Shown one piece after another: positions 10,460 through 24,792 of a stretch of DNA of 64,000 bases. This DNA is from Emticicia sp. BO119 (GTDB lineage Bacteria > Bacteroidota > Bacteroidia > Cytophagales > Spirosomataceae): the NCBI RefSeq assembly GCF_013912375.1, contig NZ_JACETV010000002.1:186001-250000 (forward strand), read 5' to 3'. The translations under genes and the position numbers were made by a program. The notes under the pieces were generated by a model. The model worked only from the letters and a program-made list of their open reading frames with translations, was not told where the DNA came from and did no database searches. Position 1 is the first letter of the stretch. Every line of letters begins with the position of its first letter.

Positions 10460-12100
10460 ATGCGTTATAGTATCCTTTTATTAGCTGTAATTACTTCCTT
10501 TTTAGCTAAAGCTCAAAAGCTGGAGCAATTAGGCTCTGCCATTAATACGGAGTACAGTGAACTGAATCCTATTATTTCTCCTGATGATAAAACACTCTAT
10601 TTTGTGCGCGTGAGCCACCCATCTAACAGTTTTGGCACAAAAGGCAGCCCTGATGCGCCCGGTAGTCATGATGTCTGGTATTCGGAAAAACGGGATGATG
10701 GCAACTGGACAATTGCCCGCAGAATGCCTAACACTATTAATAAGGATCAATTCAATGATTTGTTCAGTATTACCCCTGATGGTACTAAAATTCTTATTTC
10801 GGGGGTATATCATAATGGCCGTAGAGATAATACTGTGGGTATCTCAATGTGCAAAAGAACAAAAACCGGTTGGTCGGAACCGGAACAGATAGTGATACCG
10901 AAGTTTGAGGAAATCTGCAAAGGCCAATACCTGACAGCTTGTTTATCGAATGATGGTAAAACTCTGATATTAGCTTTTAGTGAAAAGAAAAACTCAAAAG
11001 AAGATAACCTATTTGTATGCTTTTTGGGAAGAGATGGGAAGTGGTCGAAACCAGAAAGCTTAGGTCCAGATATTAATACCGGAAGTACAGAAACAACACC
11101 CTTTTTAGCTTCTGATAATTATACATTATATTTTGCTTCTGATAGAAAAGATGGGTTGGGTGGAACGGACATATGGGTATCCAAACGTAAGGACAGAAGC
11201 TGGACGAAATGGTCGAAACCAGTAAATATGGGTGATAAGGTAAACACTGATGCCAATGAGTATTCATTTACTGTAGCTGCATCTGGAGAATATGCCTACA
11301 TGAGTACCAAGAAAAACTCAGTAGGGAAAAATGACATTGTTCGCTTTAAATTGCGTGAAGAGAAAAAGGAAGAACCCGTGGTAGCAGGTCTGCAAACTTC
11401 TGAAAAATCAGAAGAACAAAAGAATTTAGACAATGGAGGCACACCCATTGACCCGAATAGTCTGGCGCCAACGCCTGTAGTAATTGTAAGTGGGCGGGTA
11501 ATGGATAGCAAAACAGGAAAACCGGTTCAGGATGCTAAGATTATCTATAGGGTACTTCCTGATGGAGAAGAAGGAGAAGCTTATACTAATCCGGCTACGG
11601 GAATATGGACGATTGTATTGCCTTATGGGGCTAAATATAGTTATAGAGCGGAGGCCAAAGAATTTATTGGTATTGAGAAATTTATAGACCTAACCCAGGT
11701 AAAAGAGCATAAGGAGATAAAAAATGATATGGTAATAGTGGCACCAATAGAGGTGGGAGTAGAGTTGCCATTGAACAATATCTTCTTTGAATATGCAAAA
11801 GCTACTTTGCGCCCTGATTCATATCCTGAATTAGACAGGATTGTAGACACTATGAAAGAAAACCCTAATCTTGTTATAGAGATTCAGGGGCATACCGATA
11901 ATGTAGGGTCTAACGAAAGTAATATGAAATTATCGCAGGATAGAGCAGAGGCAGTACGTAAATATCTGCTTTCCAAAAAAATCCAGGCGGCACGTGTAAC
12001 CAGTGTAGGATATGGAGAAACAAAACCAATTGCTACTAATGATACGGAAGAAGGTAAAGCACAAAACCGCCGTGTGCAGTTGGCGATTGTGAGGAAGTAG
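10460..12100 (+). CDS. OmpA-family envelope protein with WD40-like and CarboxypepD_reg domains
   Basis: A 546-residue secreted protein: signal peptide (to AKA), PD40/WD40-like beta-propeller repeats at about residues 20-300 (LNPIISPDDKTLYF, FSITPDGTKILIS, TPFLASDNYTLYFASDR), a carboxypeptidase regulatory-like domain near 340-430 (VSGRVMDSKTGKPVQDA), and a C-terminal OmpA peptidoglycan-binding domain (NIFFEYAKATL, IEIQGHTDNVGSN, NRRVQLAIV). This order resembles PorE, the type IX secretion component that anchors the machine to peptidoglycan, but the N-terminal TPR part of PorE is missing. It may instead be one of many PorE-like paralogues. Confidence 0.88.
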   Translation: MRYSILLLAVITSFLAKAQKLEQLGSAINTEYSELNPIISPDDKTLYFVRVSHPSNSFGTKGSPDAPGSHDVWYSEKRDDGNWTIARRMPNTINKDQFNDLFSITPDGTKILISGVYHNGRRDNTVGISMCKRTKTGWSEPEQIVIPKFEEICKGQYLTACLSNDGKTLILAFSEKKNSKEDNLFVCFLGRDGKWSKPESLGPDINTGSTETTPFLASDNYTLYFASDRKDGLGGTDIWVSKRKDRSWTKWSKPVNMGDKVNTDANEYSFTVAASGEYAYMSTKKNSVGKNDIVRFKLREEKKEEPVVAGLQTSEKSEEQKNLDNGGTPIDPNSLAPTPVVIVSGRVMDSKTGKPVQDAKIIYRVLPDGEEGEAYTNPATGIWTIVLPYGAKYSYRAEAKEFIGIEKFIDLTQVKEHKEIKNDMVIVAPIEVGVELPLNNIFFEYAKATLRPDSYPELDRIVDTMKENPNLVIEIQGHTDNVGSNESNMKLSQDRAEAVRKYLLSKKIQAARVTSVGYGETKPIATNDTEEGKAQNRRVQLAIVRK

Positions 12101-18993: not shown

Positions 18994-20055
18994 ATGACAT
19001 TATCAAGTGAGACTATATTTTTTATAGGATTTTCGATTTTTGTAGCGTTTGTGATGGCTCTTGACTTAGGTGCATTCAGTAAGTCCAAAAGCCATGTGGT
19101 GAGTTTTAAAGAAGCAGGTATCTGGAGTGCTGTCTGGGTAACTTTAGCCGTTGCTTTTTTCTTTTTTCTCCGCCAGTATGGTTATCTGATTCATGATATT
19201 AGTGACGTGTCTCATTTGCATGATATAAAAGAAAAATATTATGAGACATTAAAACTCCCACCTAATTTTGATGCGGCACTACGGGCTTTTCAGAATAGTA
19301 TGGCGATTGACTATCTGACTGGTTATCTGACAGAATACTCATTATCTGTGGATAATATTTTTGTATTTATTCTGATCTTCAATTCTTTTGGCGTTCATAA
19401 GAGATTTTATAAAAAAGTATTGGTATGGGGTATTTTAGGCTCTATTATCTTACGCTTTATTTTTATTTTTGTTGGAGCGGCTCTGATTCAGGAGTTTGAA
19501 TGGATTTTGTATCTCTTTGGTGCTTTTCTGATTTATACCGGGGTTAACATCTTGCGGAATAACGAGGAAGAGGAGGTTATGGATCCGGCACACCACCCGA
19601 TTGTAAAGTTTGCTTCCAAGTACTTAAATGTTTATAAACGCAATGTTATTGACCATTTTCTGGTCTATAACAAGCGTTATAAAAAATGGTATATAACCCC
19701 ATTATTTTTGGTAATGTTAGTGATTGCCGGTACTGATGTTGTTTTTGCAGTTGACTCCATTCCGGCTATCTTCTCTATAACCAAAGACCCTTACATTGTT
19801 TTCTTTTCGAATGTCTTTGCTATTATGGGGCTTCGCTCTATGTTTTTCTTTTTAGCAAGTATTATGGGTCTGTTCCGATTCCTGAAATATGGTTTAGGCG
19901 TCTTATTGAGCTTTATCGGTGTCAAAATGCTTTTACATCACCAACTGACAGCAGTAGGATTTACGAATGTTCATTCGTTATTGGTTATTATAGGGATTCT
20001 TGTGATAAGTATTGGGGCAAGTGTGGTATTTCCTGAGAAAAAACAAACCGAATAA
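18994..20055 (+). CDS. TerC/Alx-family membrane protein
   Basis: 353 residues with about nine membrane segments. Family hallmarks: LTEYSLSVDNIFVFILIF and later VIAGTDVVFAVDSIPAIF, which place paired acidic residues in the membrane, followed by FAIMGLRSMFF. TerC/Alx proteins export Mn2+ or help metal loading of secreted enzymes, and were first seen in tellurite resistance; no ter operon is present here. I looked for a yybP-ykoY-like manganese riboswitch in the 200-bp leader and saw no convincing one. A terminator follows at once. Confidence 0.93.
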   Translation: MTLSSETIFFIGFSIFVAFVMALDLGAFSKSKSHVVSFKEAGIWSAVWVTLAVAFFFFLRQYGYLIHDISDVSHLHDIKEKYYETLKLPPNFDAALRAFQNSMAIDYLTGYLTEYSLSVDNIFVFILIFNSFGVHKRFYKKVLVWGILGSIILRFIFIFVGAALIQEFEWILYLFGAFLIYTGVNILRNNEEEEVMDPAHHPIVKFASKYLNVYKRNVIDHFLVYNKRYKKWYITPLFLVMLVIAGTDVVFAVDSIPAIFSITKDPYIVFFSNVFAIMGLRSMFFFLASIMGLFRFLKYGLGVLLSFIGVKMLLHHQLTAVGFTNVHSLLVIIGILVISIGASVVFPEKKQTE

Positions 20056-20061
20056 TAGTTG

Positions 20062-20095
20062 AGTAACACGGAATGATAGTGTCATTCCGTGTTAC
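20062..20095. terminator. Terminator overlapping the 3' end of the helicase gene
   Basis: Arms GTAACACGGAATGA and TCATTCCGTGTTAC are perfect. The right arm contains the stop codon and last codons of the leftward helicase gene, so one DNA segment encodes R-N-T-E-stop and terminates the rightward terC transcript. Confidence 0.75.
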
Positions 20096-23000
20096 GGCTC
20101 CAAAGCCTTTCAAATTTCCAACCCTTTGCCCGCAGACTTATCGGCAGATAAGCATGCGCATCTTTAGGTGTAATGCTCTCATAATATAAATCATCATCTG
20201 TCAAAATCAGTGATTCGTAGGTGTCGGCTTCTTTTACTGTAATATCTGCAAAAGGTAGCTCCAGATAAAAACCCTGGTTTTGCTGGACTAACTGATTTTT
20301 CAGAAGCCATCGTGTATTGAATTTTTCGGTTGTATAGGGTTCAGGCCTGTAATCGCCTTGTGATACTTCGAGTGCATATTCCAGATATTTTTTCAATAAT
20401 TTCGGCCCTAAGTTCTGAGACTGGTCGACCTGTAACTGATGAGGGAGAATACTACTCACAATATAAATGAATTCTCTTGCACGGGTAATTGCCACATTCA
20501 ATCGGTTTTCACCTCCCTGCTGATTCAGGCTACCAAAATTCATTAGCAATTTACCTTTCAGGTTAGGTGCATAGCCTACTGAGAAAATCACAATGTCGTA
20601 TTCATCTCCCTGGATATTTTCTATATTCTTAATAATACCCCAACCTTCGCCCAAAACGGGCGAAATGGTCTGATAAATCAGATCAGCCTGTTTGAAATTG
20701 AATGTAACTACCCCGATTGTTTTTGATGGAGCTCTGCGTTTCAAATCTTCTACAATTTCTAATACCTTTTGTGCCTCAGTCGGATTCGTATTGTTTTCCC
20801 AGAAACCATCCAGTTTAATATAACTGATTGCAGGTTTATTCTTGCTGATTTCTGTAAAATGGGGGAGCAACTGTAAAGAGTTTTTATAAAAATGTTGATT
20901 AGAAAAATCAATAAGGTCTAACGAATGGCTACGGTAATGACCTCTTAACCATGCTTGTGGCAGGTATTGCGCGGCTAAGTCGAGCAGAGAGTCTATTTCC
21001 AGGAGATGTTCATCTTCTGCCTCTTCATCGTACCGAATCTGGTACAGATCTGTTGGTTGTAGCTGTTTAGAATCTCCGGCAATCACTACCTGTTTACCCC
21101 GATAAATAGCCGGAATGCCATTTTCGGCAAAACATTGAGAGGCTTCATCAAAAATTACTAAATCGAAAAGTGAATCAGTCGGATTCTGACTTGAGAGAGG
21201 AAAAATAGCAGAAACAGATTCAGGAGAAGCCATCCAGCATGGAATCAGTTTAAAGATTTCCTCCGAATGATTTTCCAGCAATTTCCGAACCGACCAGAGT
21301 TTACGTTTTTTGGTGGTCTGATGCTGTAATTCCCGATAAGTAACTACATTTTGCAGGCGATTAATCACCAAATCCTGATAGGTTTGTTCACGCAATTTCA
21401 GCAACAATATTTCCTGACTTAATTCCTGTTTTTTAAGTACACACTCCTGCAATTCGGTTTCTAACTGATCTACTTTTAAAGAACTGACCCCTCGTAAAAT
21501 AGGGTGTAGGGTTTCAATATGCTGAGTCCAGGCGATGCGAAGAGAGTTCAGAAAAACCCCGGTTAAATCAGAAATACTTACTTCAGAATTTTTATAGTTC
21601 AACAAGCGTTGTATCACTTCTACTTCATTCCGGTTAAAAGATTCTTTCAGTTCATCAGCCTCTACCAATAAATCAAAATTCTGTTTTAGATAAACAATGA
21701 ACTCTTGTTTATCTTCTGGTTTATTAATCAGTTTTTCAATTTGTGGGTATGACAGATAGAGTTGCCATTGCACAAATTCAAGCTTGGTATCAACTATCAG
21801 TTGGGCTAAAATCGTAAATGAATTGATAGAGAATATATTTGAACGAGTGAATGTATCAGCAGTCTGGCGGCGAATAAATTCCTCCTGCTGATAAATTCCG
21901 TAGGCTTTGTTAGCCAGCATATAATTTTGCAACTGGGTTTTAATCGTCTCCCAATTTTCCTGTTCATCAATTACAATCTCTTTTCTGGCTAATTTTTCCT
22001 TAAGGTCTTCAAAGACAATTCGCTGCTGGATTCTCTTATTTAATATATATAATCCCGACTCACTTAGCGGAAGCCTGTTCTGGGCTAACAAGATTTCAAT
22101 CTCTCTTTTGTCTTTTGAAAAGAATTTCCAGACAAGCGAGTTAAGACCGGATTGACTGGCTGAATGTGCTTTCTCAACCTTTGCTTTTCTGAATAGTAAG
22201 TCTCTTGCTGCAATGCTTTGTTCAATACCGTCTTGCGTAAACAGTTGTTCTAATTCAGCATAAATTTTTTCTAAATCTAACTGACGGTTGCTGATGAATT
22301 TCTTTTCCTGAACAATTGCCGTAAAAATCTCAACAACCTGCGCATTTTCAAAATATTTAATGAAATCCTGAACCGTATTTTCATCAAACTGATTCAGCTC
22401 GATAATAGAAAATAACTGACCATTCTTTTGCTGGAATGCGATGACGGCCTCAATCGTGTCTATGATTTTTACGAGGTCTGTAAATGTCTTTTGGCTGAAT
22501 GAGTTGCGTAATTGCCAGAAGTCATAACCGGCTTTGCTTCGCAATTTATTTTCATATTGCAGGTATCGGCTCAGCTTTCCTTCAAAATCGGCTAATTCAT
22601 GAAAAGGGAAAGCGCGATATAGGTCTTGTAATTCGATTTGTGGTTTATTCAGACTACTGCTCAGATATAGCTCCTTTACAGAAGTGCCGCAAATGGATTC
22701 GTTAAAAAGGGCATCTTTCAGGCTTTGCAATTCTTCGGAAATCTTATCAATTCTACGACTGATTTGTGTGAAATTCCGCTCCAGAAAAATGGCATCAAGC
22801 CCTTTGTTTTTCTTCTGGAAATCTTCAATTCGTTCGATCTGTCCGGCAATTTTTTCGAAAAGTGCTTTTCTGTCATTCTTGAAATCATGAATCAAGGCCA
22901 CAAAATCGGTCATAGCTACTTTTTGCAGGCGTTGATAAACTGTATCTAAGGCTACCCGCTTCTGACAAACCACTAATACTCTTTTCCCGCGTGCCGTGAA

Positions 23001-23987
23001 ATCGGCAATCAGATTGGCAATCATTTGTGATTTACCTGTGCCAGGAGGCCCCTGTACTACAATTGAATAGCCTTCTTTTACCTGTTTGATAGCATCTTCC
23101 TGAGAGGCGTCAATGGCAAAAGGTAAAAAAGCTGTTTCTTCTTTAAAAACTGGTCGGGGATTGGGTGGAGAGGAGTGCTGAAAAAGTTCTTCAAAGGTAT
23201 CTAATTCAAAATGTCCCTCTTCGGCATTTTTGATGAGTTCTTCATAATCAGGTACAAGATAGGAGCCCGCCTGCGGGAAAATACCCAATACCGCCTGAGG
23301 ATACAATTTTAACTCTCCATTGCGCTCACTGCTATCAAGTTCGGCCTTTGATAATTTTTCAAAATCAATCAGTTGGTTCTGGAAAAGGTCCTGATTAAAG
23401 TTAATCTCAACTGGACTATCCTTCAGTAATTCATATAATTGCGTACGGAAAGCCAGGCTATCTTTGTCAAAATCCTCGAACGATTTCTCCAACCATTCGT
23501 CAGGTAGTTTTATCTGGTTGAAATAGGAATACGCTAATAAAAAGCTTCTGTTCAAGCTCTCCGGCTCGTCCCGTTGCTCTAAAATCCATTTTTTACCATT
23601 GGTTTTTAGTGTAACCGGAAAAAATAGTAGCGGACAGCGCACGGTAGTACCATCAGATAATTTACCTTTTACAAACGGATAAGCCACATATAAATCTTTC
23701 GCTCCACGTTCTTCTTCAATAAAACTCTCAGTTCTTGCCAGTTTACGTAGGCGTTGGCTTACTTCGTTTACTTTATCGTAGCGGCTATCCTGTACATCGC
23801 ACAGCAGAATCTGGTTTTTCTGACTGATTAACTGATGGATATAGTCAAATGAAGGTTTATTGTCTAAAAAATTCAGACCATGTAAATCAAGAAATTGTTC
23901 CTGAGGTAAATTTAATAGCAAAAGCGACCTGTTACGTGAAGTAAGGTTAGTCAGCCGACGAAGGTATGTTTTTAGTAGTTTTTGCAA
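20082..23987 (-). CDS. DUF4011-type superfamily 1 helicase with degenerate nuclease-like C-terminus
   Basis: A 1301-residue protein. The N-terminus (YLRRLTNLTSRNRSLLL) resembles the start of DUF4011. Walker A is QGPPGTGKSQM near residue 312, Walker B DEASQCF near 946, then GDSKQLQPTD and the arginine-finger motif LNVAITRARE near 1166, so this is a UPF1/Dna2-like SF1 ATPase with a ~600-residue, partly coiled insert between motifs. The last ~70 residues end AKGWKFERLWSRN, like the tail of Vsr/MTES_1575-type endonucleases fused to DUF4011 helicases, but the catalytic residues look altered (ILTDDDLYYES). The start is TTG, 1 bp past the upstream stop; no ATG exists before the conserved region. Relatives occur in phage-defence loci, so a defence role is possible, not shown. 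Confidence 0.85.
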   Translation of the reverse strand: MQKLLKTYLRRLTNLTSRNRSLLLLNLPQEQFLDLHGLNFLDNKPSFDYIHQLISQKNQILLCDVQDSRYDKVNEVSQRLRKLARTESFIEEERGAKDLYVAYPFVKGKLSDGTTVRCPLLFFPVTLKTNGKKWILEQRDEPESLNRSFLLAYSYFNQIKLPDEWLEKSFEDFDKDSLAFRTQLYELLKDSPVEINFNQDLFQNQLIDFEKLSKAELDSSERNGELKLYPQAVLGIFPQAGSYLVPDYEELIKNAEEGHFELDTFEELFQHSSPPNPRPVFKEETAFLPFAIDASQEDAIKQVKEGYSIVVQGPPGTGKSQMIANLIADFTARGKRVLVVCQKRVALDTVYQRLQKVAMTDFVALIHDFKNDRKALFEKIAGQIERIEDFQKKNKGLDAIFLERNFTQISRRIDKISEELQSLKDALFNESICGTSVKELYLSSSLNKPQIELQDLYRAFPFHELADFEGKLSRYLQYENKLRSKAGYDFWQLRNSFSQKTFTDLVKIIDTIEAVIAFQQKNGQLFSIIELNQFDENTVQDFIKYFENAQVVEIFTAIVQEKKFISNRQLDLEKIYAELEQLFTQDGIEQSIAARDLLFRKAKVEKAHSASQSGLNSLVWKFFSKDKREIEILLAQNRLPLSESGLYILNKRIQQRIVFEDLKEKLARKEIVIDEQENWETIKTQLQNYMLANKAYGIYQQEEFIRRQTADTFTRSNIFSINSFTILAQLIVDTKLEFVQWQLYLSYPQIEKLINKPEDKQEFIVYLKQNFDLLVEADELKESFNRNEVEVIQRLLNYKNSEVSISDLTGVFLNSLRIAWTQHIETLHPILRGVSSLKVDQLETELQECVLKKQELSQEILLLKLREQTYQDLVINRLQNVVTYRELQHQTTKKRKLWSVRKLLENHSEEIFKLIPCWMASPESVSAIFPLSSQNPTDSLFDLVIFDEASQCFAENGIPAIYRGKQVVIAGDSKQLQPTDLYQIRYDEEAEDEHLLEIDSLLDLAAQYLPQAWLRGHYRSHSLDLIDFSNQHFYKNSLQLLPHFTEISKNKPAISYIKLDGFWENNTNPTEAQKVLEIVEDLKRRAPSKTIGVVTFNFKQADLIYQTISPVLGEGWGIIKNIENIQGDEYDIVIFSVGYAPNLKGKLLMNFGSLNQQGGENRLNVAITRAREFIYIVSSILPHQLQVDQSQNLGPKLLKKYLEYALEVSQGDYRPEPYTTEKFNTRWLLKNQLVQQNQGFYLELPFADITVKEADTYESLILTDDDLYYESITPKDAHAYLPISLRAKGWKFERLWSRNTE

Positions 23988-23988
23988 T

Positions 23989-24246
23989 TTATTTATTAAT
24001 ACCGGGTATTTCTTCTATAATTTTTTTTGTCTTTTCTGAAACGAGTTTTATGGCGTTTATAGTATCCTTGTTCAAAAAGGTTCCCACCGTATTGGTAACC
24101 TTTTCAGGTTTCAATTGAATTGTTAATGCGCTGATTTTCAGCAATTTATCTCCATTCTCATTCAAAAAGGTTCCCACCATATAGGTAACGTTTTTTGGTT
24201 CCGTTTTAACGGCTGATAATTTGACACAAGCTGAAATTACCTGCAT
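23989..24246 (-). CDS. Small repeat ORF upstream of the helicase (85 residues)
   Basis: The ORF starts at an ATG preceded by AAAGGAAGC, a fair ribosome binding site, and stops 1 bp before the helicase TTG, so translation could be coupled. Its product is built of two 30-residue repeats: NVTYMVGTFLNENGDKLLKI and KVTNTVGTFLNKDTINAIKL, with VGTFLN at residues 24-29 and 54-59. I recognise no family. The repeat is also visible in DNA, where each copy is itself a dyad, so the ORF might be incidental to palindromic repeat elements. Coding status is about even odds. Confidence 0.5.
   Translation of the reverse strand: MQVISACVKLSAVKTEPKNVTYMVGTFLNENGDKLLKISALTIQLKPEKVTNTVGTFLNKDTINAIKLVSEKTKKIIEEIPGINK
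24071..24195. repeat. Two imperfect 90-bp-spaced dyad repeats
   Basis: Copies begin at 24071 and 24161, both TTCAAAAAGGTTCCCACC, then TAT, GGTAAC and a T-run. Within each copy AAAAGGTT pairs with AACCTTTT (24075-24104) or AACGTTTT (24165-24194). Spacing is exactly 30 codons of the overlapping small ORF. Confidence 0.7.
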
Positions 24247-24792
24247 TGCTTCCTTTGGCTGGGGGCTCTTTTTCTTCTTCCACGCTTATGTGTTGTTATG
24301 TGGACATTTATTTGTGAATTGTTACCCAAGACCGGGCGCCTTTAAATTTCCGGTTTAAGATTCTGTTTTCAAAGTGTTTGTGGAGTTTTTTGTTGAAATT
24401 GAACTCTTGGTGGAATACTGTGTATTTTGTTGTCTTATAATGATATAATATTTGTTCTGAGTGAGCTAAATCAACACATTTTTGAAGAAAAGAAATAAAG
24501 CTGAATACTGTCATTTCGTAAAGGGTAAGAGTTTACAAGAATCTATATTTCATGAGTCTCTTTTAAGTTTCTTTGAATAAGGTCAATACAAAATTCATTC
24601 TAAACCTAACAGATATAAAACCATTTATCAATGTTTAACACACCTTAACATTTTCTGTTTGGATTAAATTATTTATTTCGGTTAATTCGTTATAAGAAAA
24701 TTAAAAACGACAGAGTAGGTATAGGCTACAAAACTTATGCTTATTTTGGCGTTTCTTTGTATGTATATTATTCCTTATTACACCTCAAAATT
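24247..24792. other. AT-rich intergenic region upstream of the M16 protease gene
   Basis: 545 bp. A 68-codon minus-strand frame (24308-24514) is open but has no recognisable features and I do not call it. No clear promoter pair, tRNA or palindrome was found; the last 150 bp are T-rich and probably contain the protease promoter. Confidence 0.45.

Follow-up and report, generated by a model that had tools for sequence, protein, structure and literature searches.

We analyzed a 64,000-nucleotide (nt) stretch of the Emticicia sp. BO119 genome (contig NZ_JACETV010000002.1, positions 186,001 to 250,000; hereafter the window), focusing on a large helicase gene and the 85-amino-acid (aa) open reading frame (ORF) directly upstream of it. 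The 2 are probably unrelated neighbors, paired by accident: a core helicase with an altered Vsr-like tail and a decayed copy of a dispersed element derived from the phage gene terS (terminase small subunit). Both ORFs were recovered where the initial annotation of the window had placed them, at 20082-23987 (1301 aa) and 23989-24246 (85 aa) on the reverse strand. The two-gene defence or DNA-repair unit that it proposed was not borne out, since the helicase is a core gene and the small ORF is not conserved with it. The features of the helicase gene are as follows.

20082..23987 (-): gene for a superfamily 1 (SF1), UPF1/IGHMBP2-like helicase, core gene of the family, 1301 aa, TTG start.
23541..23771 (-): partial DUF4011 match, residues 73-149 (Pfam PF13195, E = 1.4e-9, profile positions 74-154 of 158).
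22734..23114 (-): AAA_11, the first RecA-like domain, residues 292-418, with Walker A QGPPGTGKS at residues 312-320.
20454..20963 (-): AAA_12, the second RecA-like domain, residues 1009-1178, with motifs V and VI.
20094..20258 (-): putative diverged Vsr/MTES_1575-like tail, residues 1244-1298, with the first aspartate kept, threonine at the glutamate position, and a TDD triplet shared by all 30 orthologs.

Judged from its sequence, the 1301-aa protein is a DUF4011-like SF1 helicase. The DUF4011-like start and UPF1-type motifs read from the letters alone were both confirmed. In addition to the partial DUF4011 match, AAA_11 (75.3 bits) and AAA_12 (65.9 bits) passed the Pfam cut-off of 27, and the protein carries the other hallmarks of the UPF1/IGHMBP2-like group, namely Walker A and B and motifs III, V, and VI. 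Most motif positions were identical in 27-30 of the 30 aligned orthologs, and the sequence relatives found in PDB were SMUBP-2 (5.2e-14), SEN1, and UPF1.

The initial annotation had singled out the helicase as the only clearly accessory gene of its neighborhood; it is instead a core gene under strong selection in the family. In a sample of 200 genomes of the taxonomic family, the gene was present, mostly at full length, in 155 (E <= 1e-30) and missing from 45, and it was identified in 142 of the 167 good assemblies, in 31 of the 36 genera of that sample, and in all 11 genomes of the genus. Across a sample of the phylum, 10 of 296 genomes had the helicase (E <= 1e-60), all from 2 families of the same order. 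The ratio of nonsynonymous to synonymous substitution rates (dN/dS) was 0.037-0.047 in the 4 computable pairs, similar with or without the upstream insertion, and the synonymous divergence (dS) of the helicase between the window and Emticicia sp. C21 (hereafter C21) was about 1.1.

Of the 30 best-scoring helicase loci, examined with short flanks, 17 had the terC gene within 1.5 kilobases of the helicase (9 of 10 within the genus and 8 of 20 outside it). On the side opposite terC, an M16 peptidase flanks the helicase; of the 10 loci of the genus, 8 showed it clearly and 1 weakly. When 10 neighbors of the helicase were compared with PADLOC, matches were limited to an OmpA domain (ZorB-like) and a HEAT repeat, with no other defence system. 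Core distribution, terC and M16 neighbors, low dN/dS, and the lack of defence neighbors all disfavor a variable-island setting, and the surroundings of the gene do not look like such an island. The terC gene (window 18994-20055) and the helicase (20082-23987) form an old, unexplained gene pair. Further along the window, the OmpA/PD40 protein at 10460-12100 matched ZorB models through its OmpA domain only and does not on its own make up a Zorya system.

The C-terminus of the helicase appears to be a diverged domain of the Vsr/MTES_1575 type, an assignment supported in its orthologs. Catalytic residues of MTES_1575 domains follow the pattern D .. E-x-D. The motif ILTDDDLYYES, noted in the initial annotation as lacking an obvious nuclease signature, is indeed present at residues 1261-1271, and the usual glutamate is gone: the D and the second D of the pattern are kept, and the E is a T in 30 of 30 orthologs. 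Alignment of these orthologs showed L-P-F-x-D-x-T, then L-T-D-D, and later K, W, R, and S-R, all invariant, so that the first aspartate, the threonine, and the 2 aspartates that follow it are identical throughout. Such invariance of the TDD triplet points to strong constraint on an altered site rather than to random decay. Using hhalign, the MTES_1575-like segment IDLAV..LGIECDG was paired with FADIT..LILTDDD of the tail, which again sets threonine against the usual glutamate.

Of 41 family genomes searched with the MTES_1575 profile (PF18741), 7 had a match in the orthologous tail, identified by comparing match positions with the helicase loci, and every match fell below the curated cut-off. 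The E values were 3.0e-6 (G020), 7.7e-6 (G006), 2.8e-5 (G031), and 8.6e-5 (G018), with weaker ones of 3.0e-4 (G004), 3.5e-4 (G039), and 5.3e-4 (G005); the best orthologous tail scored 29.8 bits, short of the gathering cut-off of 38.2 for membership. The claim that the last residues match MTES_1575 thus holds for these orthologs, at sub-threshold scores, and fails for the window's own tail, which was unmatched.

The stretch ahead of the helicase contains the following features.

23989..24246 (-): 85-aa ORF, a decayed terS-derived repeat and no partner of the helicase, ending 1 base before the helicase TTG start.
24075..24104 (-): 30-nt imperfect palindrome, copy 1, matching the searched pattern without mismatch.
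24165..24194 (-): 30-nt imperfect palindrome, copy 2, 1 mismatch.
24319..24411 (-): non-coding conserved leader of the dispersed element (contig C12:210319-210411).
23988..24618 (-): 631-nt stretch from the helicase start codon to the conserved upstream region, 73 nt long in the sister genome G094, with a whole element copy inside.

The 85-aa ORF is part of a dispersed, lineage-specific element, here in decayed form, that consists of a leader, terS remains, and 30-nt palindromes. As the initial annotation had recognized, the ORF carries a repeat, with 2 copies of 56 nt that are 79% identical and lie 90 nt apart; its palindrome, in 2 copies, is AAAAGGTTACCAATATGGTGGGAACCTTTT. We consider the ORF terS-derived because of the leader, the palindromes, and the related element copy that C21 has at the equivalent site ahead of its helicase; leader and palindromes at the helicase site match those of other element copies. 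Among the helicase loci examined, only the window's genome and C21 had the element ahead of the helicase. When 31 loci, including 30 with a helicase, were searched by tblastn with the 85-aa product, the matches were the window's own locus and frame-broken pieces in C21, besides 4 others at E >= 3.4, so the proposed coupling of the small ORF to the helicase was not supported. The helicase was found without the small ORF, at a conserved place, over the 30 loci covered rather than over all relatives; the refuting condition that the initial annotation had set for its proposal thus applies in part. A role of the ORF as helicase antitoxin or leader peptide was rejected, as it is not conserved. RNA folding of the ORF region (1 run) was unremarkable, with a z score of -1.1 and 31 of 200 shuffles as good.

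The 30-nt palindrome occurred 49 times in the window's genome with at most 3 mismatches (0 in a backward-read control), 143 times in C21, and 0 times in the other 9 genomes of the genus. Most palindromes sit inside copies of terS; some lie in open terS-like frames, and just a few weak cases (L088, L089, L090) lie in or beside other genes. The terS ORF matched PHROG 309 (terminase small subunit) at 7.6e-45. A search of the window's genome with the terS protein gave 36 matches (E <= 1), mostly short or broken pieces, some of which share 1 place and the weakest of which are possibly chance. An intact terS of 191 aa with the palindrome was identified in L052, and full copies without it in L053 and L054. 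In C21, a 308-aa terS-like protein (L096:1504-2430) has its repeat motif expanded in frame to several copies. Tandem palindromes were spaced 75, 81, or 90 nt apart, some of them in open frames; arrays of 75 nt were found in L037 and L050, and other spacings were 79-90 and 132-135 nt.

The leader, modeled as a 67-position profile, was identified in 29 of the 34 palindrome loci of the window's genome; the profile had been built from most of these copies, and it also found 32 C21 copies outside its building set. The leader was rejected as a coding stretch, since the second codon position varies most and many copies contain stops. A sequence-only leader model, made from the 2 genomes in which the leader was found, matched none of the remaining 198 of the 200 family genomes among the best 20 candidates per genome under stricter filters. 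Upstream of the leader, a left module resembling CTGTCAAAATCTGATAAA was present in 9 of 62 copies (e.g., L053, L043, L044, L106, and L131), and downstream of it a right module resembling AAATTAAACAAGTTC was present in 16 of 62 (e.g., L032, L134, L111, and L128), allowing 3-4 mismatches, with about 4 right-hand matches expected from the window background. These shared modules are perhaps the true ends of the element.

The order leader, terS, and large-subunit gene (TerL), followed by a same-direction ORF, was found in 2 places, 1 in the window's genome and 1 in C21. These stand-alone leader-terS-terL modules lie among other ORFs at L092:4593-6842 (window's genome, contig C22) and at L167/L095 (C21), and the stand-alone TerL matched a terminase large subunit profile at 6.3e-83 (PHROG 309 and 979 being the small and the large subunit). 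This module is possibly the autonomous form of the element. Around terS and TerL copies in the stretches read, no portal or capsid gene was recognized by eye, the scan being for terS and TerL only. A prophage in contig C24 of the window's genome (L091, 49000-60000) carries a third TerL, a portal, and a terS that has neither leader nor palindrome. The other 9 genomes of the genus gave no match to the terS or TerL of the element at E 1e-5. Leader and palindrome were absent from 34 viral loci with a related TerL, a limited test because tblastn found terS in only 5 of the 34, and a palindrome search of viral contigs returned 0.

Nearly all copies face the start of a gene. Taking ORFs of at least 90 aa as genes, the nearest downstream ORF ran in the direction of the element at 30 of 31 loci in the window's genome; the 3 remaining palindrome loci of the 34 were L088 and L089, whose stretches contained no ORF further downstream, and L090, which was left unscored; L089 and L090 are 3-mismatch matches in or beside ordinary genes and may be chance. 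The downstream ORF was co-directional at 39 of 41 loci in C21 (22 of 23, plus 17 of 18 new ones), where 45 distinct arrays were read from the 143 palindromes (26 plus 20, L229 repeating L115) and 4 had no downstream ORF. Upstream neighbors had mixed directions in both genomes. Between 2 same-direction genes, copies read by eye were 16 forward and 0 reverse in the window's genome and 18 and 1 in C21. A rough null for 30 of 31 gave P = 2.5e-5 by length and 5.9e-8 by count; it was based on the spaces between genes in the window and the C21 loci, the element being present in some of these spaces. Comparing the 34 sites with C21, 11 were matched on both flanks, 4 by the element and 1 side, and 5 by 1 side only. 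The orientation counts of the 2 genomes are therefore not independent, and these 11 sites, with 9 matched in part, indicate that many insertions predate the split of the 2 lineages.

The palindrome itself is nearly constant. Over 50 copies in the window's genome (at most 6 mismatches), the 30-mer was 97% identical, compared with 53% for the 30 nt before it and 52% for the 30 nt after it. The value is no artefact of the cut, because mismatch counts drop sharply: 28 copies had 0, 12 had 1, 5 had 2, and 16 were spread over 3 to 10. C21 was less uniform, with 129 copies at 94% and flanks of 61% and 53%. The outer 8 arm pairs were still paired in 88-100% of copies in both genomes, with a few two-sided changes. 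Because the synonymous divergence of the helicase is about 1 change per site, the constancy of the 30-mer needs either selection on it or recent copying among copies. Rfam had 0 matches in the window and only a tRNA above the gathering score in 5 element loci, and a sigma-70 and terminator scan listed 3 terminator-like sites, the 30-nt palindromes not among them.

Taken together, we propose that the helicase would act as an ATP-driven nucleic-acid translocase for genome maintenance, and that its tail, with 2 aspartates kept and the usual glutamate lost, may serve as a DNA-binding or regulatory module instead of a standard nuclease. The element would have spread in a burst before the lineages of the window and C21 split, and 1 copy would have landed between the upstream region of the helicase and its start codon, as other copies did before many other genes. 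The helicase would still be working behind the element, which suggests that the pairing is accidental.

Several observations weigh against this account. The nearest named families of the helicase (ProA, Hhe, and PDC-S37) are anti-phage, and a core gene can still serve defence. The window's own tail had no significant nuclease profile match, either in Pfam or with the MTES_1575 profile at E 0.001. The hhalign comparison of the tail with MTES_1575-like sequences was weak (probability 6.4%, P 0.006), and a structure prediction of the tail from 2 sequences was poor (mean pLDDT 38.1) and was not used. For the element, the terS match of the 85-aa ORF on its own was not significant (E 0.025 and 0.31), and the leader profile was partly built from copies that it then finds, the window's copy included.

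Regarding the palindromes, a live alternative, which we place somewhat below an even chance, is that they are selfish palindromic coding elements that entered a family of terS genes, similar to those of Rickettsia or to PARCELs, kept alike by copying or gene conversion and not by function. Such elements have been described earlier (PMC2996958). This reading would account for tandem spacings of 75, 81, or 90 nt, which are seen in open frames too, and for the repeated protein motif of the 308-aa C21 ORF, and the 75-nt arrays of L037 and L050 agree with the tandem dyad repeats of 25 codons that mark PARCELs. It sits less well with the many copies in broken frames whose 30-mer is nonetheless far more uniform than its flanks, and spread alone leaves the orientation toward gene starts unexplained. 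Neither of the PARCEL models DUF285 and TIGR02167 appeared at E 10 for the 308-aa C21, 191-aa, or 85-aa ORF, in a search where HMMER filters drop many weak matches, and the palindrome was rejected as a PARCEL for want of a match to either model.

For the helicase, we regard as unlikely the alternative that it is an anti-phage protein of the ProA/Hhe/PDC-S37 type fixed in the chromosome, which would sense or unwind phage DNA with its helicase and whose tail would still cut DNA, using D..TDD as an unusual metal site. The kinship with anti-phage helicases stated in the initial annotation was supported: the best matches to curated families were ProA (NF058533) with 485.4 bits, PADLOC PDC-S37 with 470 bits over residues 292-1298, for which the PADLOC library gives no cut-off, and Hhe (NF042953) with 300 bits. 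The acidic triplet is moreover invariant and not decayed, and a large DUF4011 gene of Pseudomonas aeruginosa is described as a core gene flanking a defence hotspot (PMC10250203). The ProA and Hhe scores are, however, far under their cut-offs of 1500 and 2000 bits. The ProA alignment joins helicase residues 280-1297 to profile positions 638-1685 of 1903, omitting the first 637 and about 218 C-terminal positions, so that the C-terminal profile end is not reached. The broad core distribution, the terC neighbor, and the 10 neighbors free of any other defence system also speak against it. Separately, a ProA-like helicase whose IECD motif is intact was observed in the relative G032 (L136, contig C7), which has the core helicase as well; the tested 515-aa part of that protein scores 649 bits.

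A bolder reading of the repeat, which we hold to be doubtful, is that, in one Emticicia lineage, a terminase-derived element (leader-terS and, in 2 places, leader-terS-terL) moved on its own and reached the 5' regions of about 50 genes or more, nearly always oriented toward the gene start, and that its 30-nt palindromes are now selected as operator-like or RNA-hairpin sites. Finally, hardly any credence can be given to the 85-aa ORF as a translated regulator or partner gene forming a two-gene unit with the helicase: only 1 base lies between its stop and the TTG start and the frame is open over 85 codons, but of the 9 other helicase loci in the genus, 8 gave no tblastn match to its product, and 7 of these 8 (L004-L010) also showed nothing like it ahead of the helicase by eye, its frame is broken in C21, and its repeat is a genome-wide element that precedes many other genes.

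Under the reading of 2 unrelated neighbors, the large helicase-plus-Vsr architecture known in anti-phage systems is found here in a widely retained chromosomal gene whose active site is altered yet invariant, which calls for caution before every such gene is labeled as defence. The repeat is the surprising part, and it would matter more than the helicase if a function of the palindrome holds. Because the palindrome is near-unchanged amid decayed terS remains and nearly all copies face gene starts, it offers a testable case of mobile phage DNA giving a bacterium a set of regulatory sites. If the bolder reading is true, the element would be both a new type of mobile unit made from terminase genes and a means of wiring a regulon, with the helicase gene among its targets.

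Among the literature matches listed, no paper treated this helicase or terS-derived dispersed repeats, and we compared both with the nearest known systems. MTES_1575 (PF18741) is described as a Vsr-like restriction-endonuclease domain (PMC3710099). The helicase tail resembles it in position and in the motif order D..xxD..GW..R.WS and differs in the threonine that replaces the glutamate of IExD and in having, over 41 genomes, zero tails above the cut-off. ProA shares the SF1 helicase core and the Vsr-like region aligned over residues 280-1297, whereas the unmatched profile ends, the core status of the gene, and the altered nuclease motif set the helicase apart from it. Hhe likewise combines DUF4011 with a helicase, in a profile of 1797 positions compared with 1301 residues here, and has a known defence role, for which the present helicase gave no evidence. 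The likeness to IGHMBP2/SMUBP-2, UPF1, and SEN1, the relatives in PDB, is confined to the helicase core. In its way of working, the helicase may still resemble the helicase-nuclease systems. The dispersed element, similar to Rickettsia palindromic elements and PARCELs, is palindromic and tandem, with some copies in open frames; unlike them, it is a terS-derived unit with its own leader, placed ahead of genes and facing them.

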